64,000 nucleotides of DNA from Bacteriovorax sp. BAL6_X (GCF_000443995.1 NZ_AUMC01000006.1:310001-374000); one strand, 5' to 3'. Shown: positions 38,566 to 50,518, numbered from the stretch's first letter. The notes: generated from the letters alone by a model not told the origin. Translations and numbers: made by a program.

Positions 38566-39474
38566 ATGAAAGGCATAAAAAGAAATCATATTCACCAAAA
38601 TGAAAATGGCTTTACATTAATTGAAGTTCTTATCGCTATTGCCATTCTTTCTGTTCTTATGACGGCCATTTATACAATTGTTGACAGTAGTGTAAACACG
38701 AATGATCGAGTTACAAAAGAAGACCGAGAAAGACTTCAGCTAGAAATTGGAATGATGAGAATAGAAAGGGATATTGAGCTGATCAACTCTCCCCTATACT
38801 ATGAATCATCAAAGGCCGATGACAATAAGGCATTTGCTAAGGCCTATAATACATCACAGTCTCAATCCCAATCAAGACTTGGAAGTTCTAGTCAACAGCA
38901 GCAACAACAGCAGCAATCTAAAAATTATGTCATGACGACCCATCTATATAAGAATAAGAATTTTGACAATCTTTCAGCAGGTAATGTCCCTATTCCGATT
39001 ATATTGAATGAAGAAAAAGGCTCGTTGGTTTTTCTATCATCTGCTAACCGAAGACTTGTAAAAAATATGAAGCAGTCTAACTTAATGTGGGTACGCTACC
39101 GTGTCGTGACAACTTCGACGGAAGGCCAAGAGGAAGAAGAAAAGAATACTGAGGCCCCTTACTCACTTACCAGAACAATCATCCCTGTTGATATTTACAA
39201 TAAGGATCTCGACTGGGGGAAAGCCAAAGAATATCCAGTAATTGAAAATCTTAGAGACTTTTCATTTGAATTCTACAGTCCAGAAAAAGAAAAGTTTGTT
39301 TCGTCTCTTAGAGAGTTAAATAAACTTAGAAATACACCACGACTTATTCGTATGAATATCGATTATGTTTCAAAGAACGGAGATGAACTTCAACTTAACC
39401 GAACGATACGTGTTATGTGGCCAGAATTTAATTCTAGCGAAGACTTAAAGGAAAAGTATGACTTTAAAAAATAA
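38566..39474 (+). CDS. gspJ: Minor pseudopilin GspJ with a polyglutamine insert
   Basis: 302 aa. Cleavage motif ENG/FTLIEVLIAIAIL. The remainder matches GspJ in outline (VRYRVVTTST, then SLTRTIIPVD). It is longer than the usual ~200 aa. A low-complexity segment at ~100-125 contains eight consecutive Gln encoded by mixed CAA/CAG, flanked by Ser/Gln repeats. The end overlaps the gspK start by 17 bases. Tip-complex subunit. Confidence 0.9.
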   Translation: MKGIKRNHIHQNENGFTLIEVLIAIAILSVLMTAIYTIVDSSVNTNDRVTKEDRERLQLEIGMMRIERDIELINSPLYYESSKADDNKAFAKAYNTSQSQSQSRLGSSSQQQQQQQQSKNYVMTTHLYKNKNFDNLSAGNVPIPIILNEEKGSLVFLSSANRRLVKNMKQSNLMWVRYRVVTTSTEGQEEEEKNTEAPYSLTRTIIPVDIYNKDLDWGKAKEYPVIENLRDFSFEFYSPEKEKFVSSLRELNKLRNTPRLIRMNIDYVSKNGDELQLNRTIRVMWPEFNSSEDLKEKYDFKK

Positions 39475-40825
39475 GAAGACAATACTTAGAAATGAGTCAG
39501 GGATTGCCATTATCATGGTAACCACAGCAGTTGCTATATTAACAGTACTACTTGCACAGTTCACATATGAGACAAAACTCAACAAGATAAGAATTCAAGG
39601 ACAAGTAGATAAGGTTCAAGCTAAGCTTAATGCTGAAGCGGGTCTTCACTACGCTCTTTCAGTGCTGAAAGTTTACCGCGAAGCATGGAATAAACTTGAA
39701 GATAATACTTCTCTTCAGTCCACAATTTCAAAAAGCGATATCGAAGCAATTGCAACACAGCCTTTTATTGTCCCTATTCCAGTATCAACAGAGCTCAATG
39801 CACTACAAAAGAATGCCATTGCTGAATTTGAAAAAGAATCTCTTATTCAGGGATCAATTTCAGTAAGCCTAAGGCCAATCACAGGCTTTCTCAATCCAAA
39901 TACATTAAGAGTTATTAAGCCTGTAAATGGAAATTCTTCTCAGTCATCTTCGGGCCAAAGTGGACAAGATAGTTCATCAATTACTCCACACCAATTCATG
40001 GAGAAAACTTTCACAGATATGCTTGAGAGAACTTTTAGAAATGAGATTGAAAATAATGAAGACTTTGCGCTCCACTATTCAAACTTAGATCCAAAGCTAC
40101 TTGTAAAAGAATTAAAGTATTATGTTTCAGGCAAAGAAGATTACGAAGAGCCTGAAAAGGCCGATATTGAAAGAACTTATCAAAACCTTGGTGTGGAAGC
40201 AAAGCATGCAGCTTTTGAAACAGCTGATGAACTCTACTCTCTTGCTGGCTGGGATGATGAAATCGTAAATTTAATTAAGGATCGAATTTCTATTCACAAT
40301 GTCTCTGTAATAAATGTGAACGAAATTACGATTAATCAGCTTAAAGTACTTTTTCCAGAAATGTCAGATGTTGCTCTTGAAGAATTCTTTAAGTATCGCG
40401 ACGGAGATGAAGAAAATGGGACATCACCAAGTTCATTTAAGAGCGATAAAGATTTTAAAGAACTAATCACAAATCGAATTGGCGCAGTAGAATCTTCTGA
40501 CTTCGATAAGAGAATTAAAGAATTTGCCGATGCCGATATCATCATTGGAACAGGTGGGAAATTATTCAAATTAGAATCAATTGGAAGCTACGCCGATACG
40601 ATCTATAAACTGACTGCTTTTATCGACTTACCAATAAAGCCTCAGGCCCCATCAACGACGTCTCAAGGTCAAAGTGGACAGCAGGCCGGCGGCTCCCAAA
40701 ACCTAGATGATGACGACGACGGAGGTAATGGACAACAGCAGTCAGGATCAGCCTCTCAAGAACAAAAATCGACTGGAAAGAGCTACCTACTACGCCCTAG
40801 AGTTGTTGAAATACGCACTTACTAA
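39458..40825 (+). CDS. gspK: Minor pseudopilin GspK with Q/S/D-rich tail
   Basis: 455 aa. The pilin-type N-terminus ESG/IAIIMVTTAVAIL lacks Glu at +5, which is the normal hallmark of GspK, the pseudopilus tip subunit. The large alpha domain includes DELYSLAGWDDEIVNLIKDRI and INVNEITINQLKVLFP, as in other GspK proteins. Two low-complexity inserts occur: Ser/Gln-rich at ~165-180, and a Gly/Gln/Ser region with five consecutive Asp near 405-440. The end is 60 bases from gspL. Confidence 0.92.
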   Translation: MTLKNKKTILRNESGIAIIMVTTAVAILTVLLAQFTYETKLNKIRIQGQVDKVQAKLNAEAGLHYALSVLKVYREAWNKLEDNTSLQSTISKSDIEAIATQPFIVPIPVSTELNALQKNAIAEFEKESLIQGSISVSLRPITGFLNPNTLRVIKPVNGNSSQSSSGQSGQDSSSITPHQFMEKTFTDMLERTFRNEIENNEDFALHYSNLDPKLLVKELKYYVSGKEDYEEPEKADIERTYQNLGVEAKHAAFETADELYSLAGWDDEIVNLIKDRISIHNVSVINVNEITINQLKVLFPEMSDVALEEFFKYRDGDEENGTSPSSFKSDKDFKELITNRIGAVESSDFDKRIKEFADADIIIGTGGKLFKLESIGSYADTIYKLTAFIDLPIKPQAPSTTSQGQSGQQAGGSQNLDDDDDGGNGQQQSGSASQEQKSTGKSYLLRPRVVEIRTY

Positions 40826-40885
40826 TGGCAAATTTTTCATTCAAAAAAAAACAGCAAAGTTATTGAAATTTGGTAAAATAAATTT

Positions 40886-42463
40886 ATGAGTATTTTAGTA
40901 ATAGACTGTGGTGCCTACAGTATTAAATTTGTTGAAGGCCGAGTACACAAAAAAAGATTCATTATTGACGATATTGAAGAAGTTTTACTCGAAGATGTTC
41001 GTGGCCCTAGTGACCAAGAAGTCTCTGTACATGAACTTCAACAAAGAATTATCTCTGGTTTTTTAAAAGACCAACACTATAACGGTCGTATTATTACTCA
41101 ATTACCTAATGAGTTTTTAACGAATCGCTATCTTGATCTACCTGCTAAAAGCAAGAAAGATGCGGAATTAATGATCCCCTTCCAATTAGAAGAAGACTTA
41201 CCGTTTAATATCTCTGATACTCACTATATTGTTAATCTTTATAAAAAAATTAATGGCCAATTCTCTGCAATAGTTCAAATTGCGGAAAAGAGTGTATTTG
41301 CAACTTATCGAAACTTTCTACAGGCCTATCATACGGTACCTTCAAACTTAACTTCAGAACTTAGTGTTTACCAAAGTTTTGTTGAAGAAAAGAAGTTAGA
41401 ATCAAATGTTTGCATTCTCGATATCGGTCATCAAACGACGAAGGCCTACTTAATTTATAACGGTATAATCTATACGCATCATATTTCATATGTCGCAGGT
41501 GCGGCCATTGATGAGGCAATTTCTAAAACTTATAATATTGGTCCGGCCGAAGCTAGAATCTTCAAACATGAAAATAGCTTTTTCTTAACGAAGTCTCAAC
41601 TGGACAGCGTAACAAAAGAGCAACAAGACTTTGCTCTGATGATGCACCATACATTTAAAGATCTACTCTCTCAAATTGATCGCTGGTTATTGGGTCATCG
41701 AGTTAAAACGGGTCAAAGTATTGAACATATCTACTTAACTGGTGGATGTGCCAATATTAAGAATATAGATAATTATATTACAGAAAGACTGCATGTTAGT
41801 GTGTCACAATTTATGACACCAGGTCTTGAAAGAATGATATCTCCACAAGAGTACAACTCTCTAACATTGGCCTATACAATGGGTGTATCTAATACATTTA
41901 GAGAGCCAGCAAAGAACTTTTTCACAAAAGAATTCGCATCGGCATTAAAAGATGGGATTAAATTAGAAAATACAATATTTACTTTCTATCGTCTTGCTCT
42001 AGTCTGTCTCATACTGTGTGCTGGTTTTTTAGTAGAGTCACTCTATTTTGTAAACCGCGACATCAAAGCAACCGACAGAGAGATTAAGAAGCTTATTAAA
42101 TCGAGCGATCTTAATATTACAAAAAAGCAGGAAAGATATCTTAGAAAATCACCTGATAAATTAACAAAGATTATTAAGCAAAAAAATAAAGCGATAGAAG
42201 TTGATTTAAAAGTACTAGCTGGTGTGCCAAAGTCGAGTGCTCTTGCTAATCTACACACTGTCACAAGTGCAATTAAAAGAAATGAAGAAGTTTCCCTGAC
42301 AAAATACAAAGGTGATCTTAACTCTGGCTTTGCACAATTCCAAAGTAAGAGTGATCGCGATACGAAGCAGTTACTTAAAGTCCTTAAGGGCCTTAATGTA
42401 AACGATGCAAATATTGACGATACAAATAAAGATAAGATTACAATTAGCTTTAAAGGTAAATAA
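40886..42463 (+). CDS. gspL: Type II secretion protein GspL (actin-like cytoplasmic domain)
   Basis: 525 aa. The N-terminal ~340 residues have the actin/PilM-like fold (MSILVIDCGAYSIKFVEG, then NVCILDIGHQTTKAYLIYNG and IYLTGGCANIKNI). One membrane helix lies at ~373-392, followed by a periplasmic ferredoxin-like domain. GspL recruits the GspE ATPase. No ribosome site is evident; TAAAAT at 40874-40879 lies six bases before the ATG, so an internal leaderless promoter is possible. The end overlaps gspM (TAATG). Confidence 0.92.
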   Translation: MSILVIDCGAYSIKFVEGRVHKKRFIIDDIEEVLLEDVRGPSDQEVSVHELQQRIISGFLKDQHYNGRIITQLPNEFLTNRYLDLPAKSKKDAELMIPFQLEEDLPFNISDTHYIVNLYKKINGQFSAIVQIAEKSVFATYRNFLQAYHTVPSNLTSELSVYQSFVEEKKLESNVCILDIGHQTTKAYLIYNGIIYTHHISYVAGAAIDEAISKTYNIGPAEARIFKHENSFFLTKSQLDSVTKEQQDFALMMHHTFKDLLSQIDRWLLGHRVKTGQSIEHIYLTGGCANIKNIDNYITERLHVSVSQFMTPGLERMISPQEYNSLTLAYTMGVSNTFREPAKNFFTKEFASALKDGIKLENTIFTFYRLALVCLILCAGFLVESLYFVNRDIKATDREIKKLIKSSDLNITKKQERYLRKSPDKLTKIIKQKNKAIEVDLKVLAGVPKSSALANLHTVTSAIKRNEEVSLTKYKGDLNSGFAQFQSKSDRDTKQLLKVLKGLNVNDANIDDTNKDKITISFKGK

Positions 42464-43080
42464 TGACACAGAAAAGCGTATTTAAAGAAATTGATGTCGC
42501 TATTGATAAGCAAATTGAAGAAGCTAGGAACTCTGGTGTTTTTCAATCCTTTGCCGATCAACTTCGCTCTTTTTCAGAAACTGAACAAAAAATAATTAAC
42601 CAGGCCCTTTCTGGTCTAGTCATTATTATTCCTATTATCGCTCTAATTGGTGTTTTTATCTTTAGAACTATCAAAGTAAGTGACTTAAATACAAGAAAAG
42701 AATTAGAGCAGACAATAATAAGCTTTAAAGAAGGTAATATAAAGCTTAAGGCCCAAGAAGGCCCTATTGTTATCAATGAGGCTATTTATGAGAAGTCTGA
42801 TTTTATAAGCAAATTAAACAATGCAACTTCAAGGCTTAATATTAAAGGAAATCAACTTAATGTTGATGGTTTTCAAAAAGAAAACCTTGGTGGATCAATA
42901 AATCGAATTGAAACAAGTATCATGATTGAGAAATTCACAAATAAGGCATTCGTTGGACTCTTAAATGAACTTCACCGCAAGTTTAAAATTATAATCACAG
43001 AGATCGACCTTGAAAAAACAACAGATGGAAAATTCGTTTCAGGAAAGTTCCTTGTTGAGTTTTACGCAAAGGTTAATTAA
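42463..43080 (+). CDS. gspM: Type II secretion protein GspM
   Basis: 205 aa with an N-terminal cytoplasmic stretch and one membrane helix at ~48-70 (ALSGLVIIIPIIALIGVFIF). A periplasmic domain follows that would pair with GspL. Sequence conservation in this family is low, so the call rests on architecture and on the position between gspL and gspN, with start-stop overlaps on both sides. Confidence 0.82.
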   Translation: MTQKSVFKEIDVAIDKQIEEARNSGVFQSFADQLRSFSETEQKIINQALSGLVIIIPIIALIGVFIFRTIKVSDLNTRKELEQTIISFKEGNIKLKAQEGPIVINEAIYEKSDFISKLNNATSRLNIKGNQLNVDGFQKENLGGSINRIETSIMIEKFTNKAFVGLLNELHRKFKIIITEIDLEKTTDGKFVSGKFLVEFYAKVN

Positions 43081-44074: not shown

Positions 44075-45046
44075 ATGCAAAATCAATCTGTATTAGAGCT
44101 TAAAGAAGCAAGGCAGCAAATTGAAGCTGACCTAAAATTATTTATCGATCAGAATAATTATCAAAATTTCTTTAGTGAGATTTATGATTACTCCCTCTTG
44201 CCTGCTGGAAAGTTGTTTCGCCCTATGCTCGCTTATGCGACAGCTAAAGACTTTGGTATAGACTTTAATGAAGAAAGGCTTAGAAAGTCAGTTAAGAGCT
44301 TCTCATGTGCATTAGAAATTCATCATACATATACACTAATTCATGATGATATGCCTTGTATGGATGACGATGAATATCGCCGTGGACGATTATCAACTCA
44401 TGCAAAGTTTGGCCAATGGCAAGCACTCCTAGCAGGAGATGCACTTCAATCTCTTAGTTTTAATTTAATTAATAAGATTAACGTAAAGAATAAGTATGAA
44501 ATTTTAAATTATGCTCATTGGTGCTTAGGAGCAAAAGGCCTCATTCTTGGCCAGGCCCTAGACCTTGGTCACCACATGACTGAGAGCTTTAAGAACTTAA
44601 TCCTTACTCATAAATTGAAAACGGCACGTCTTATCCAACTCTCAATTGTAGGCCCTTATCTTTTTAATGATGAGGCAAACTTAGAAACGGCCAAAACACT
44701 ACACCGTCTCGGACACCATATGGGAATAGCCTTTCAGCTACTTGATGATCTTTGTGAGCTTGAAGATGAAGTTTTAAGTGAACATGAAGAGGCCATCAAT
44801 CCATGGAAAACGAGAGGACAGGACTGCTTTGTAGAATTACAATCTAACCTTGAGTATATGAAAGTATTTTTTGAAAAGTTCGCGTGCGAAAATATCCGTC
44901 TAGTATACGGAGAATATCTTGGAAAGATACTTGGTATTATCGAACCTAATAAAGAAACAATAACTGATCACTTAAATGTAGAGACAGGCACTAGGCCCGC
45001 CTCTTTAGATCCAATTATTTCTTTGTTGAATACTTTGACTCTTTAG
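44075..45046 (+). CDS. ispA: Polyprenyl (farnesyl/geranylgeranyl-type) diphosphate synthase
   Basis: The enzyme condenses isopentenyl diphosphate with allylic diphosphates, supplying quinone and undecaprenyl precursors. The first Asp-rich motif is in LIHDDMPCMDDDEYRRG; the second reads FQLLDDLCELED instead of the usual DDxxD, a small deviation. GKLFRPMLAYA and KTARLIQLS are also typical. At 323 aa the length fits short-chain IspA. The chain length of the product cannot be read reliably. It follows gspN by 35 bases and overlaps the convergent merR gene by 42 bases at its 3' end. Confidence 0.9.
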   Translation: MQNQSVLELKEARQQIEADLKLFIDQNNYQNFFSEIYDYSLLPAGKLFRPMLAYATAKDFGIDFNEERLRKSVKSFSCALEIHHTYTLIHDDMPCMDDDEYRRGRLSTHAKFGQWQALLAGDALQSLSFNLINKINVKNKYEILNYAHWCLGAKGLILGQALDLGHHMTESFKNLILTHKLKTARLIQLSIVGPYLFNDEANLETAKTLHRLGHHMGIAFQLLDDLCELEDEVLSEHEEAINPWKTRGQDCFVELQSNLEYMKVFFEKFACENIRLVYGEYLGKILGIIEPNKETITDHLNVETGTRPASLDPIISLLNTLTL

Positions 45047-45439
45047 GTTCAATTGATTAAGGATGCTCTTAGCTTGCTCAAGCTTATCTAAATCAATATT
45101 ATAATTTGCAACCTTTGATTTAGAAGACTTTACAGGCTTTGTATTTAATTTCTTCTTAGTAGCTCCACTAGTGTCTTTAGAAGGATCAAGTTGACCTCTT
45201 AAAACTAGTTTAGCTTTTTCAATAGTCATCTTCTCTTCAAATAAAAGGCCTTTAATTTTTGCCAGCATTTGAATATCTTTTTGTTCAAAAAGTTTTTGAC
45301 CAGTAGAAGAAACGAGAGGTGAAATTTCGTCAAATTCACTTTCCCAAAATCTTAATACGTATGGCTTTACACCAATAATTGAGCAAACTTCATCAAGTTT
45401 AAATAACGATTTCTGTGGAATCGATAATGTTTCTAGCAT
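45005..45439 (-). CDS. MerR-family transcriptional regulator
   Basis: 144 aa. The N-terminal winged helix-turn-helix is clear (LFKLDEVCSIIGVKPYVLRFWE, then KLFEQKDIQMLAKIKGLL). The C-terminal ~70 residues are Lys/Ser-rich and lack the metal-binding cysteines of MerR/CueR, so the effector is not metal-like. It begins one base after the ihfA stop, an ihfA-merR pair also seen in many Proteobacteria-related genomes. It overlaps ispA at the 3' end. Confidence 0.88.
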   Translation of the reverse strand: MLETLSIPQKSLFKLDEVCSIIGVKPYVLRFWESEFDEISPLVSSTGQKLFEQKDIQMLAKIKGLLFEEKMTIEKAKLVLRGQLDPSKDTSGATKKKLNTKPVKSSKSKVANYNIDLDKLEQAKSILNQLNLKSQSIQQRNNWI

Positions 45440-45850
45440 TTAAAATCCGTTTTCACTCTCGAAGTCATCATCAGTATCATTTCTAAATGATGTAAGTGCT
45501 TTCGGAGTTCCTTCTTTAGGTGCAATCGAAGTGTCTTCCTTACCTTTATCGTCGATACGGTGTACGTAGCGTCCAGTAATATCTTCCTTTAAAACCTGTG
45601 ATGGTTTAAAAGTAAGAACACGTCTTGCAGAGATTTCCATCGCCTCACCTGTTTGTGGGTTACGGCCAACTCTTGATGCTTTATCGCGAATTGAGAAGTT
45701 TCCAAAACCAGAAATTTTTACTTTCTCCCCGCGGGCCAAAGTATCTTTAATTACTTTAAAAACTAAGTCGACAAGATCAGAAGCTTCCTTTTTAGAAAAC
45801 CCTGCTTCCTTATAAACTCGTTCGACAATATCAGCTTTAGTCAAGCTCAT
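45440..45850 (-). CDS. ihfA: Integration host factor alpha-like DNA-bending protein
   Basis: 136 aa from the ATG at 45850, which has GGAGGA just upstream; the longer reading frame to 45919 is unlikely. HU/IHF core: LTKADIVERVYKEAGFSKKEA, then VKISGFGNFSIRDKASRVGRNPQTGE, which includes the DNA-intercalating Pro of the beta arm. RRVLTFKPSQVLKEDI follows. E. coli IhfA has 99 aa. Here a C-terminal extension of ~40 residues is acidic (TDDDFESENGF). It is a nucleoid-associated protein, followed directly by merR. Confidence 0.93.
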   Translation of the reverse strand: MSLTKADIVERVYKEAGFSKKEASDLVDLVFKVIKDTLARGEKVKISGFGNFSIRDKASRVGRNPQTGEAMEISARRVLTFKPSQVLKEDITGRYVHRIDDKGKEDTSIAPKEGTPKALTSFRNDTDDDFESENGF

Positions 45851-46042
45851 TGCATTCCTCCATGAATCAAAAGAACCTTTATATATTAATAGGTTAGCAG
45901 AATTATGAATATTTAACAAAAAAAATTTTGTGGGAAATATATTTCATTTTAATAACTTAGGCTTTTTTGGTGTTAAATCGTCAATTAAGCCAGTTTTAAG
46001 AAAAGCTTAAGTTGAACGACTAAATAAATACCATGTAACATG

Positions 46043-46051: not shown

Positions 46052-46128
46052 ACTTCTTCTTGTCAAATTGGCGTATTGACATGAACAATCCCCAGCACAA
46101 GTTTTATACTTCTGCTGGGGATTTTTTA
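46048..46128 (+). ncRNA. Candidate small RNA ending in an intrinsic terminator
   Basis: The plus strand has TTGAAC (46012-46017), an 18-base spacer and TAACAT (46036-46041). Near position 46087-46123 there is a perfect 11-bp stem (AATCCCCAGCA/TGCTGGGGATT) with a 15-base loop, followed by a T-run. No plus-strand gene precedes this terminator, so a transcript of about 80 bases is possible. The U-tract is only on this strand; the hairpin may also slow transcription from parC. Expression data would decide. Confidence 0.35.
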
Positions 46129-46140
46129 TTTCTGACTTTT

Positions 46141-47607
46141 TTACTTAGATTTTTTCTTAACGGCTTTCTTCTTGGCCTTTTTCTTACCAAGTTTTTCTTG
46201 ATCTTTAGCAATCTTCTTTAGAAGCTTAAGCTTTTCAGCGTCTTTCTTCTTGAGCCAGTCAGTTAGTTTTGTGTCAACTTCATTTAGCTCTTCGACAAGC
46301 TTCTTAGCTACAAGTTTTGGAGACTTTGCAATTTTTGTATACTCATTAAGTCTCTTAGTCTCGTCCTTAACAAGAAGCTTACGCTTTTCTACTTCATCCT
46401 TAGTCATACGATATATTGGCATATCTGCTAGATAATCAGAATAGACGTACTTTTTCTTATCTAGGTATTCAACAAATGACTTTCTATTCTTAGACTTTGT
46501 CGCCTTCTCGTATTCTTTATTTTTAATGAACTTAATGATTTCATTATTCTTTGTGATAGAGTCTTTAAGATCAAGACATAGAAGTTCATAACGACGAGTA
46601 ACGACTTTAAGTCTTTCACCAGTAAAAATCTCAATAATCTCTTCGGCCTGCTCAAATATCTTAACACCTCGCTCTGAAATGAGTGTGTAGTTCGGTGAAA
46701 GAGATGAAGTTGCTCCAACAGTATCCTGTACTTCTTTAAGAGTAACTTCTTGTCCTTTTTTAAAAAGAAGCTCGATATTAATTTCGTTATCAACTGATGC
46801 ATCAACGAAATCCTTAATGAAGCCACTATCAATGAATTTTGTCAGGTGACGATAAATTTTCTTAGCATCATATCCACGTGGTAGTTCTGTGATAAAAAAC
46901 TTTCCATCTTTTTCTTCAATACTCATTTCAAAAGTGAGCTTGCCACTTTTTTTATCCACATGAATAGGAAGTGAGTAATTATGAACATAAGGCTTAATTT
47001 TTTTCACTTTTCCAGTTTCAATAAAAGAGATCATCGACTTGATTAAATCTTTATGATGAAAACTTGGAATAGTCGAAGAAAAGCCAGTACCAATCCCCTC
47101 TGCACCGTTAAGTAACATTAGTGGAAGTTTTGGAAGTAGACCTACAGGCTCCATTGAACGTTCGTCGTAATTAGGAACCATTTCAACTTGGTTCATATCA
47201 TCAAATAATAAGATATCAGATACCTTACCTAATTTACACTCAATATACCTTCCGGCCGCAGGATCAGTCTCCATACGCTCACCGAAGTACCCTTTCTTAT
47301 CAATAAGTGGATAGTTATTTGAAAAGGTATAATCTTGGGCCATATTAACAATCGCCGATTCGATTGAAGCTGGTCCATGCGGGTGTAGTGTTAGAACTAA
47401 ACCAGTTGCCGCAGATACTTTTAAAAGTCCCTTCGACTGATTTTTCCAAAGAGTATAGAGAATACGTCTCTGCCCCGGCTTGAGCCCATCTTGAAGATAC
47501 GGAATCGCTCGATCCATAAGAGTATAGATCTGATATGTACGATACTCATCTCTTACGATATCTTCTAAGTTTACTGATTCAAGTGAATGAAGATAAGTTT
47601 CTTGCAT
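46141..47607 (-). CDS. parC: Type IIA topoisomerase A subunit lacking the C-terminal pinwheel domain
   Basis: 488 aa. The breakage-reunion core is present: DGLKPGQRRILYTLWKN, LHPHGPASIESAIVNMAQDY, YFGERMETDPAAGRY (the last Tyr is the DNA-linking residue) and GTGFSSTIP. Bacterial GyrA/ParC proteins are 750-875 aa with a C-terminal beta-pinwheel. Here that domain is missing; a coiled-coil region and a Lys-rich tail (KKKAKKKAVKKKSK-like) end the protein. DGLKPGQR and SNNYPLIDKKG resemble eukaryotic and T4-type enzymes more than GyrA. The start is 24 bases after the B subunit. Named parC by function class only. Confidence 0.85.
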   Translation of the reverse strand: MQETYLHSLESVNLEDIVRDEYRTYQIYTLMDRAIPYLQDGLKPGQRRILYTLWKNQSKGLLKVSAATGLVLTLHPHGPASIESAIVNMAQDYTFSNNYPLIDKKGYFGERMETDPAAGRYIECKLGKVSDILLFDDMNQVEMVPNYDERSMEPVGLLPKLPLMLLNGAEGIGTGFSSTIPSFHHKDLIKSMISFIETGKVKKIKPYVHNYSLPIHVDKKSGKLTFEMSIEEKDGKFFITELPRGYDAKKIYRHLTKFIDSGFIKDFVDASVDNEINIELLFKKGQEVTLKEVQDTVGATSSLSPNYTLISERGVKIFEQAEEIIEIFTGERLKVVTRRYELLCLDLKDSITKNNEIIKFIKNKEYEKATKSKNRKSFVEYLDKKKYVYSDYLADMPIYRMTKDEVEKRKLLVKDETKRLNEYTKIAKSPKLVAKKLVEELNEVDTKLTDWLKKKDAEKLKLLKKIAKDQEKLGKKKAKKKAVKKKSK

Positions 47608-47631
47608 TATTTATTTCCTTCCTAATACTTT

Positions 47632-49836
47632 TTAATCAAGGTAATCAATCATATCCGCTAGGCCACCAGTGACCGCTTTTTTAGAAACGGCCTTTTTTGC
47701 CTTTTTCTTTACAGCTTTTTTTGCGGTTTTTTTAGCGGCTTTCTTTGCTGACTTCTTCGCTACAGCTTTCTTAGCAGTCTTTTTTGCAACTTTCTTTGCC
47801 GCTTTCTTTGCCGCTTTCTTTGTAGGCTTAGGCTTTGTTACAACCTTATCTTCAGAAATTGCTTCAGACATTATTTCAGATTGATCTTCATCAAGAAGTA
47901 GATCTTTTCTTAGGTTTGTATCCTTACCAAAACAGATATTAAGCATCTCTTTGGCCTTAGACTTCTGGTCAATTACAATCTTAGTGTACTCATCCTTAGA
48001 TAAAACATACTTCCAGGCTTCTGGCGACATCTCACCAAGTCCCTTATTTCGATGAATTTCTTTAATCTTTACTTCACCAGCATCTCTAAATTCTTCAAGT
48101 TCCTTATCTGACTCAAAGTAGAGAGTTTTCTTGTCTGTCACGACTTCAAAAAGTGGAGCTTTAGCAATTTGAATTGCACCCATCTCAAATAATTCAGGCC
48201 AGAACTGGTAGAAGAAGTTTGTTAAAAGTGTATTAATGTGTCCACCATCAACATCCGAGTCGGCAAGGAAGACAATATTCGAATAACGAAGTTTCTTCTC
48301 ATCAACTTCTTGCCCTAGAACAAGACCAATTGATGCCATGATGTCAGAGAATTCCTGATTATTTAAAATATCTTTGATACCAGCTTGAGCAACGTTCATC
48401 GGCTTACCACGAAGAGCAATCCCACCTTGATATAATTTATTACGAGCTGACCTTAGACCACCGATGGCCGAGTCCCCCTCACAAATAAATAGTGTACACA
48501 ACTCACGCTTCTTTCTTTCGTTAGCATCAAGAAGTTTTTCAACTCTTTGTCTTTTTTGCTTACGGCCTTTTGAAGCTGCTTCTTTTAGAACCTGATACTT
48601 ATGGCGTGACTTCCCTCTTTCAATAACGACTTCAAGATAGTCCTTATTTTTTCTCATGAACTTATCTATCGACTTGCTCATGAGTTCTTCAAGTGCCTTT
48701 TCAAGATGAACATCACGAACGAGTTTACGTTTCGTTTGTGACTCAAATCTTGGATTAGGCATTGTCACACCAAGAACGAAAGTTAGGCCAGAAAGAACAT
48801 CATTATCAACTAACTTGATTTTCTCTTTCTTTGCCTGACGCTCTAACTTGTCTTTTACAGCATTGATAAAAATTCTTCTTACACGGTCATGGTGAAAACC
48901 ACCGTCATATGTAGGAGTTGAGTTAACAAAAGAGATAAACTTTTCTCTTTCCTCGCTGCCTTTATCAATTGTTAGAGAAAGAGACATATCGATCTTTCCC
49001 TTAACTTTTTTCTTTTTCGTATTTATTGTCTCGTAGATATAAGCTGTTTCACCAAAATCGTGAGCATTTACTTCATCAATTCTTTGAGCTAGCTCATAGA
49101 GCCCCTTTTGATAGTGATATTTCTCACCATTAAAGTAGAAAGCAAGTCCCGGATTATTATAAGCAAGGTCAATAATACGCTTTCTTAAAAGGTTTTCATC
49201 GATCTTATTGTCTTTGTATACCTCTTTGGCCAGTGTTACCTGAATCGAAACACCTGAAGCACCCTTAAAAGCTTTCGGCTTAGTTTGTGAAACTTTAAGA
49301 GCTCCATCAATGAACTTCGTTGTTTGCTCTTTTTTAGAGTTATAGTGCTTAATCGTTACAAAAAACTCATCTGCCGTTAGACAAGTTGCAGCGGCACCTA
49401 GACCGTTTTGTCCAAGAGTTCGATGAAGAAAGCCTTTCTCATCAGTTTCTTCATCTTTAAATTTAGAACCAGTTCTAAATTCAGAGTAAACTTGTTTCAC
49501 TTTATTTAGAGGAAAGCCAATTCCGTTATCAGCAACTGTAACTGTTTTCCCATCTTCACTTAGTGAAGTGTGAATTTCTGTAACGTGTCCACGATAATAT
49601 TCGTCAATACAGTTATCTAAAAGCTCTTCAATGGCCTTTGACTTTGCTTGGTGAAATTTTACCGTTTTAAAATCGACTGACTTATCTTCGTAGACATATG
49701 TCTCTAAATCTTCAATATCATTAGAACCAAAGACGAGCGTAATACGGTTTCGACAGTGCCATCTTTGATCTTTACTCTCAATGACAGCGTCTTTCGTCCT
49801 ACCTTTACGATTCACTTTTTCAATGCTGCGTCCCAT
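47632..49836 (-). CDS. parE: Type IIA topoisomerase B subunit with a histone-H1-like Lys/Ala tail
   Basis: 734 aa. A GHKL ATPase domain (ELLDNCIDEYYRG, ADNGIGFPLNKV, QNGLGAAATC) is followed by a transducer domain and a Toprim domain with LFICEGDSAIGG and FLADSDVDGGHI. These carry the Mg-binding acidic residues, Ser replacing the usual Ala in DADVDG. The last ~65 residues are almost entirely Lys and Ala in a KKAxKK pattern, like histone H1 or bacterial H1-like proteins, an unusual addition that probably binds DNA. It precedes and partners the A subunit. Confidence 0.88.
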   Translation of the reverse strand: MGRSIEKVNRKGRTKDAVIESKDQRWHCRNRITLVFGSNDIEDLETYVYEDKSVDFKTVKFHQAKSKAIEELLDNCIDEYYRGHVTEIHTSLSEDGKTVTVADNGIGFPLNKVKQVYSEFRTGSKFKDEETDEKGFLHRTLGQNGLGAAATCLTADEFFVTIKHYNSKKEQTTKFIDGALKVSQTKPKAFKGASGVSIQVTLAKEVYKDNKIDENLLRKRIIDLAYNNPGLAFYFNGEKYHYQKGLYELAQRIDEVNAHDFGETAYIYETINTKKKKVKGKIDMSLSLTIDKGSEEREKFISFVNSTPTYDGGFHHDRVRRIFINAVKDKLERQAKKEKIKLVDNDVLSGLTFVLGVTMPNPRFESQTKRKLVRDVHLEKALEELMSKSIDKFMRKNKDYLEVVIERGKSRHKYQVLKEAASKGRKQKRQRVEKLLDANERKKRELCTLFICEGDSAIGGLRSARNKLYQGGIALRGKPMNVAQAGIKDILNNQEFSDIMASIGLVLGQEVDEKKLRYSNIVFLADSDVDGGHINTLLTNFFYQFWPELFEMGAIQIAKAPLFEVVTDKKTLYFESDKELEEFRDAGEVKIKEIHRNKGLGEMSPEAWKYVLSKDEYTKIVIDQKSKAKEMLNICFGKDTNLRKDLLLDEDQSEIMSEAISEDKVVTKPKPTKKAAKKAAKKVAKKTAKKAVAKKSAKKAAKKTAKKAVKKKAKKAVSKKAVTGGLADMIDYLD

Positions 49837-49864
49837 GCTTAAATTTTCCCCTATCTTAGCTTCG

Positions 49865-49873
49865 TGCTATAAT
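49865..49873 (+). promoter_or_regulatory. Extended -10 promoter for the secreted unknown gene
   Basis: TGCTATAAT, a perfect TATAAT with the TGn extension. It lies in the 73-base gap between the divergent parE and the TTG-started gene at 49910. A start site near 49880 would give a leader of about 30 bases. Confidence 0.55.
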
Positions 49874-49909
49874 GAATTTACTATAAAGAATAAGGGAAAC
49901 TTAAAGGCC

Positions 49910-50518
49910 TTGAAAGTTACAACGCGTCAACCATTGATAATTACAGCAGTTTTTTACTTGATTTTGACATTTTCAAATCTCGCCATCGCCTCTGATTTCA
50001 AGGGTATCGATGCAGATATCAAAGAAATTTTAGTTGATAAAAAAAGAATTTACCGAAAGGCCATCGTTAAGACCGAAGAAAACAAACAAAGTTTAGATTA
50101 CCAAATATATGGAATTCATCCAAATAAATGCAAAGTCGCATTAAGAAAATTGTCGCGCTACGAAAAATTCAATGAATATATCGACCTAGTAAAACTATCG
50201 GGTTACTCAGAAAAGAAGAAAGAAATTTATCTCTATCTCGATCATACTTTAATGCCATTTCCCATGTCTCTAAATTTTAGAATCCCACGTATCACTAAAC
50301 CAGGAACTTATCCGTTCACATTTAATAAAGGTTTTTTAAAAGGACTAAAAGGCGAAATAAATGTGAGACAGCTTTCAAATGGAAAGTGCCTCTTCTTTTC
50401 TAAGAGCTACTGGAAAGGAGAAAAGTCTTCTATTCCTGATGCACTCTTTGAAATGTTTTCTGAAACTTTGGGAGAGCTTGCAATGGAAAAATTATTTCGT
50501 GTATCTCGCCGACTTTAG
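49910..50518 (+). CDS. Exported hypothetical protein
   Basis: About 202 aa from a TTG at 49910. The longer frame to 49781 would run into parE and cannot be made from the promoter at 49865-49873. The TTG start gives a good signal peptide (TRQPLIITAVFYLILTFSNLAIA). The mature protein is basic and probably beta-rich, with two Cys residues (NKCKVALRKL and NGKCLFFSKS). It contains a PFPMSLNFRIPRITKPGTYPF segment. I recognise no family. Its 3' end overlaps the convergent radD by 27 bases. Confidence 0.62.
   Translation: MKVTTRQPLIITAVFYLILTFSNLAIASDFKGIDADIKEILVDKKRIYRKAIVKTEENKQSLDYQIYGIHPNKCKVALRKLSRYEKFNEYIDLVKLSGYSEKKKEIYLYLDHTLMPFPMSLNFRIPRITKPGTYPFTFNKGFLKGLKGEINVRQLSNGKCLFFSKSYWKGEKSSIPDALFEMFSETLGELAMEKLFRVSRRL

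Follow-up and report, generated by a model that had tools for sequence, protein, structure and literature searches.

A pinwheel-less type IIA topoisomerase pair conserved in the Bacteriovoracaceae and set apart from gyrase and topoisomerase IV

The topoisomerase of phage T4 and eukaryotic Top2, which are built in a similar way to the enzyme considered here, relax and decatenate DNA, while TopoNM of Mycobacterium smegmatis is a type IIA enzyme distant from gyrase and topoisomerase (topo) IV that decatenates and shows reduced quinolone sensitivity (PMC8084294). Bdellovibrio bacteriovorus lacks topo IV but has gyrase and the archaeal-type topoisomerase VI (Topo VI), which is suggested to act as the decatenase (PMC11302465). 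Here we describe a two-gene type IIA topoisomerase from a 64,000-nucleotide (nt) window of Bacteriovorax sp. BAL6_X (NZ_AUMC01000006.1:310001-374000; the window is the whole stretch of DNA analysed). A first-pass annotation had placed an A/B pair at 46141-49836, with an A subunit of 488 amino acids (aa), and both open reading frames (ORFs) were located there. We propose that they form an A2B2, ATP-driven, three-gate type IIA enzyme that would serve as the chromosome decatenase and relaxase of the Bacteriovoracia beside a normal gyrase.

Judged by their sequences, A and B make up a type IIA topoisomerase core with all of its catalytic modules, from which the beta-pinwheel is missing. The GHKL ATPase, transducer and TOPRIM modules lie in B, which matched PF02518, PF00204 and PF01751 together with a weak PF00986 (GyrB C-terminal) hit, and the winged helix with its RY pair and the C-gate lie in A. 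The only Pfam domain of A is a complete PF00521 (breakage-reunion; residues 33-441, E 1.4e-84), and the same scan found no DNA_gyraseA_C (PF03989) repeat in it. Its last aligned residues correspond to approximately position 527 of E. coli GyrA, where the core stops; beyond them A continues as a Lys-rich tail. An AlphaFold2 model of A (mean predicted local distance difference test score 84.6) contains the winged helix, the tower, the C-gate coiled coil and a long C-terminal helix, but no pinwheel; it was built from a mixed alignment, an earlier model from a narrow alignment having been poor in the winged helix. The initial claim that A ends where the C-terminal domain (CTD) of GyrA/ParC should begin is thus borne out by alignment, domain content and model alike. 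A has a clear ribosome-binding site, and the 24-nt gap between B and A implies that they would be expressed as one operon. The features of the pair, all on the minus strand, are as follows.

46141-47607, minus: A subunit (GyrA/ParC/gp52-like), 488 aa; ORF with winged helix, tower, C-gate coiled coil and Lys-rich tail
46144-46233, minus: final 30 residues of A, a Lys-rich tail where the pinwheel would start; from sequence
47077-47097, minus: GIGTGFS motif of A; from alignment
47245-47247, minus: codon of the predicted catalytic Y121 (E. coli GyrA Y122), with R120 (R121) ahead of it; from alignment, family-invariant
47356-47385, minus: quinolone-pocket helix HPHG-PASIES, with Ala80 at GyrA Ser83 and Ser84 at Asp87; from alignment
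47616-47623, minus: ribosome-binding-site-like AGGAAGGA, 8 nt before the A start; from sequence
47632-49836, minus: B subunit (GyrB/ParE/gp39-like), 734 aa; ORF in which GHKL ATPase, transducer and TOPRIM precede a basic tail rich in Lys and Ala
47635-47889, minus: basic KKAAKK-type tail of B; varies among relatives and is missing in one of six aligned
48202-48495, minus: TOPRIM domain of B, carrying the metal-binding motifs EGDSA and ADSDVDG; PF01751, kept in six relatives
49847-49852, minus: ribosome-binding-site-like AGGGGA, 10 nt before the B start; from sequence

The host is a Halobacteriovorax-like predator (Bacteriovoracia) with a genome of 3.2 Mb that is 99.98% complete. A check for separate gyrA and gyrB genes found a standard gyrase: exactly one other PF00521 protein is encoded, a GyrA whose 838-aa frame contains six PF03989 repeats, and the one other PF00204 protein is the GyrB adjoining it. 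No separately encoded pinwheel was found, as the PF03989 matches of the genome are confined to GyrA.

Among described systems, the T4-type phage topoisomerase II (gp52 / gp39-gp60) and related phage pairs share with it separate A and B genes, a pinwheel-free A of 430-490 aa, the NN before the pocket and further residues. The A model also matches the T6 and T4 central domains, with template modelling scores by target length of 0.85 and 0.83. Identity to the phage proteins is, however, approximately 25-31%, they carry Tyr at the first His of the HPHG that A retains, and the Bacteriovorax pair is chromosomal and conserved in a bacterial family. Eukaryotic Top2 and the fused viral homologues gave the best profile scores against the Protein Data Bank (PDB), lack the pinwheel and share the SNN, GIGTG and ARYI-type motifs, yet Top2 is one fused chain where A and B are two ORFs. 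With bacterial topo IV (ParC/ParE) the pair shares its probable role, its adjacent genes and its standing as a second type IIA pair beside gyrase, but it falls far below every NCBIfam ParC/ParE cut-off. TopoNM, compared by description only, likewise stands far from both gyrase and topo IV among bacterial type IIA enzymes; reportedly even related bacteria lack it, whereas the A+B pair is conserved in a whole family. The best PDB fold matches of the A model were gyrase cores, Top2 and the T4/T6 central domains, and fold comparison was unable to separate GyrA, T4 and Top2.

Trees were built for the A core (36, then 43 rows) and for B plus A (25, then 32 rows) under LG+C20+F+G4 with posterior mean site frequencies, and are unrooted. 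Their rows comprised GyrA/ParC of several phyla, plasmid-borne enzymes, T4-like, jumbo and Kuttervirus phages, phage and fused viral enzymes from IMG/VR, and eukaryotic Top2, to the exclusion of TopoNM and of chlamydial, spirochaetal and PVC (Planctomycetes-Verrucomicrobia-Chlamydiae) ParC. The family pair forms a single clade (100/100), a branch supported at 100/99 to 100/100 parts it from all GyrA/ParC rows, and a further branch at 99/96 to 100/98 unites phages and Top2 with the pair excluded. The same place was recovered under four-state recoding with four odd, long-branch rows dropped. In approximately unbiased (AU) tests, joining the pair to ParC was rejected (p 3.7e-5 and 2e-5), as was joining it to Bacteroides ParC (p 4e-4) or to Top2 plus the fused enzymes (p 9e-7), while joining it to the basal jumbo/Rhizobium phages was weakly rejected (p 0.014 and 0.017). 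Membership in DNA gyrase is set aside by the missing pinwheel and the place outside GyrA/GyrB, in canonical ParC/ParE by the missing pinwheel, the profile scores and the AU test, and in Top2 by the two ORFs and the AU test. Nesting within the T4-type phage/Top2 clade is excluded by the branch uniting that clade, less strongly so towards the basal phages.

Because the tree is unrooted, what can be stated firmly from these alignments is limited to three groups, namely GyrA/ParC, phage plus Top2, and the Bacteriovoracaceae lineage; the pair would be sister to phage plus Top2 under midpoint rooting only. The idea of a T4/eukaryote-like core is supported, with a qualification. The pair lies on that side, and a family profile scored Top2 of trypanosome, Plasmodium and yeast at approximately 160-166 bits, above ParC (at most 148), T4-type gp52 (142) and GyrA (at most 135), but it branches just outside the T4/eukaryote clade itself. 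The motifs first cited for that likeness fared unevenly. SNNYPL is indeed phage/eukaryote-like and absent from GyrA/ParC, and the same holds for a further motif, GIGTGFS, whose counterparts in the alignment are GIGTG[WFY][SA] in eukaryotes, GIATG in T4 and GIAVGM[AS] in GyrA/ParC; related loci carry IGTGFSS in 79 of 80 cases and IGTGFSC in the other. DGLKPGQR is not diagnostic, since DG.KP.[QH]R occurs in nearly all type IIA enzymes and its G varies within the Bacteriovoracaceae; the catalytic RY of AAGRY is universal. Among 17 columns of A that separate the two sides, nine are phage/Top2-like, four GyrA/ParC-like and four neither. By leave-one-out residue log-odds, which do not depend on a tree, both A (+196 to +244 bits) and B (+50 to +111) fall on the phage/eukaryote side, with real members of that side more extreme.

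Of 116 Bacteriovoracaceae genomes, 105 carry the short A, and the approximately 209 other phylum genomes searched have none, their matches being at GyrA level. In a scan of genome contigs with lineage-specific patterns, 80 of 110 matching loci were recovered; their titles name Bdellovibrionota or fit them, and other phyla may hold homologues. In these 80 loci A measures 471-501 aa when complete, and B adjoins it in 77, with a gap of a few nt in most. Given its presence in 105 of 116 family genomes, the pinwheel-less A is an old family trait and not a recent or single-strain truncation. A firm place within canonical ParC with a recent loss in one strain would have told against the first-pass annotation; the pair instead stands outside GyrA/ParC in every tree and is conserved family-wide.

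The distribution of Topo VI gives some insight into the role of the pair. The Topo VI-B transducer (PF09239) was searched in 242 phylum genomes with completeness of at least 90% (rounded) and gave 157 matches, all outside the family (157 of approximately 165 genomes outside versus 0 of approximately 77 inside). In the same near-complete genomes the short A is present in 74 of 77 inside the family and in none outside, and Topo VI-A is absent from the host genome. Sister families have gyrase and Topo VI. This mutually exclusive distribution across the phylum is newly found here. The Topo VI of Bdellovibrio and other Bdellovibrionota is, like the pair, a presumed decatenase beside gyrase, although it is a type IIB enzyme with an unrelated A subunit. 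Since the pair stands in place of Topo VI, which the sister families have, it probably fills the decatenase slot for chromosome separation in the Bacteriovoracaceae.

Other arrangements occur in the phylum. One family of two genomes has a canonical-looking ParC in a 776-778-aa frame with Topo VI absent, and canonical ParC seems to fill the decatenase slot in this third family; a few small genomes have gyrase only. Separately, one genome has a second PF00521 protein in a 946-aa frame beside Topo VI.

The mechanism we propose follows the anatomy of A and B. Without a pinwheel, the wrapping of DNA by which a neighbouring segment is captured would be impossible, and hence no negative supercoils should be introduced. 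The second duplex would be captured as by T4 topoisomerase or Top2, perhaps aided by the basic tails of A and B, which may tether DNA although they vary; across relatives their median net charge is +8.5 for the last 30 residues of A and +18 for B. We infer, by analogy with these enzymes, that the pair would relax and decatenate DNA without negative supercoiling. It would have replaced, or been kept instead of, the Topo VI that serves the topo IV role in the rest of the phylum.

Taken as a whole, an A2B2 decatenase and relaxase beside gyrase, which replaced or was kept instead of Topo VI and, under midpoint rooting, lies at the base of the phage/eukaryotic side, is our best explanation, with a probability of roughly 0.8. 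Several observations weigh against it. The exchange with Topo VI amounts to one switch, the family being one clade, and is statistically weaker than many independent events would be. Three near-complete family genomes (G086, G094 and G098) have neither the pair nor Topo VI, so that a decatenase may not be strictly essential or these assemblies may be incomplete; G098 carries a ParC-like fragment, in an assembly with 5% contamination. The stem of the lineage is long (approximately 1.1-1.4 changes per site), and HPHG, R48 and L157 of A resemble GyrA/ParC.

The origin of the pair can be read in two ways, both compatible with the decatenase function. Under midpoint rooting the pair sits at the base of the phage/eukaryotic side, and the missing pinwheel then more probably reflects the ancestral state of that side than a domain loss from ParC; the pinwheel may never have been present in the lineage of A. 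On this basis we tentatively suggest that a cellular stem lineage of the phage/eukaryotic type IIA side persists in the Bacteriovoracia, that is, a chromosomal, never pinwheel-bearing relative of Top2 serving as a decatenase in place of Topo VI. Alternatively, and in our view about equally open to doubt, the Bacteriovoracia ancestor could have captured the pair from a large jumbo or T4-like phage and recruited it as a decatenase. Phages on the same side share its two-gene, pinwheel-free anatomy, and that Topo VI was displaced points to a gene arriving from outside. Yet the pair falls outside all sampled phage lineages, the nearest being the weakly rejected jumbo/Rhizobium phages, and its phage relatives reach at most approximately 31% identity over most of the length. 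No close viral donor was found among GenBank phages or in IMG/VR with the lineage-specific patterns, and a GIGTG-motif scan of IMG/VR yielded more phage and fused viral enzymes, none of them nearer to the pair.

It is improbable, by our assessment, that the pair is a strongly diverged topo IV, with one loss of the ParC pinwheel in the ancestor of the Bacteriovoracia, and that long-branch attraction accounts for its deep place. The role and setting of the pair (adjacent B and A with gyrase elsewhere), the ParC-like HPHG and R48, the long stem and the existence of a CTD-less ParC model in NCBIfam (PRK09630) would all suit such a history. They are countered by the AU rejections of both ParC groupings, by the stability of the placement to recoding and long-row removal, and by residue log-odds on the other side together with the low scores for all ParC models. 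A gyrase-like supercoiling enzyme in which the strongly basic tails stand in for the pinwheel is less probable still, as the tails vary (one aligned relative in six lacks that of B), a standard gyrase with its six pinwheel repeats is present, and the similarly built T4 topoisomerase and Top2 relax and decatenate.

The least probable alternative places A in the CTD-less ParC group of Chlamydia (models PRK09630, PRK09631 and PRK12758): A resembles PRK09630, which we take to be the chlamydial CTD-less ParC, in length (479 vs 488 aa) and missing pinwheel, and aligns near full-length to PRK09630 and PRK09631, but it reaches only 115 of the 598 bits of the PRK09630 cut-off, and joining it to Bacteroides ParC was rejected, real chlamydial rows being outside the tree. 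Bacteroides ParC scores 1510/744/404 bits with PRK12758/PRK09631/PRK09630, which suggests that the three models represent one group. A scores 162/171/115 bits, below the ordinary ParC of B. velezensis (221/236/157); membership of A in that group is therefore very improbable, and enzymes without a pinwheel would have arisen more than once.

The sequence of A also bears on drug response. The quinolone pocket is altered throughout the 80 related loci: the residue matching Ser83 is Ala, or rarely Gln, Asn or Val, and Asp87 is replaced by Ser, Gln, Thr or Ala, so that the water-metal bridge should be missing, and we predict a quinolone-insensitive enzyme. Among the gyrases, the GyrA of the host genome carries Asn in place of Asp87, and in two further GyrA of the phylum Val or Ala stands where Ser83 would be. 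Such changes in GyrA confer quinolone resistance elsewhere, and a natural tolerance of these bacteria is possible.

Of the surrounding genes, the divergent neighbour of B (49781-50518, plus strand) encodes a probably secreted protein of approximately 200 aa that has no significant Pfam match, with weak hints of DUF1824 and Polyketide_cyc; it occurs in 73 of 80 related loci, in most of them just upstream of B in the same divergent position. Downstream of A, on the minus strand, lie an integration host factor alpha gene (45440-45919) and a MerR-type regulator (45005-45439), found inside the flanks of 37 of 80 related loci. Right after A, at 46087-46123, an 11-bp inverted repeat (AATCCCCAGCA/TGCTGGGGATT, 15-nt loop) has its flanking T run on the plus-strand side, so that it does not form a simple terminator for the A-B operon. 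Further off, 39458-43080 (plus) holds genes like parts of a type II secretion or type IV pilus apparatus, with a PilM/GspL-like gene at 40886-42463.

A text search of the literature for Bacteriovorax and topoisomerase returned nothing relevant, papers on the viral origin of Top2 being outside its coverage. Bacterial type IIA enzymes are usually filed as gyrase or topo IV, and A+B is a conserved chromosomal pair that is neither. Its lineage adds a new branch near the root to the debate on a viral origin of Top2, and a cellular stem lineage, if true, would break the long branch from GyrA/ParC to the viral and eukaryotic enzymes and so bear on the origin of eukaryotic Top2. Within one phylum the decatenase slot would be filled by at least two different proteins, Topo VI or the A+B pair. 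For the Bacteriovoracaceae themselves, the pair offers a testable, probably quinolone-insensitive decatenase in predators that are considered as living antibiotics.

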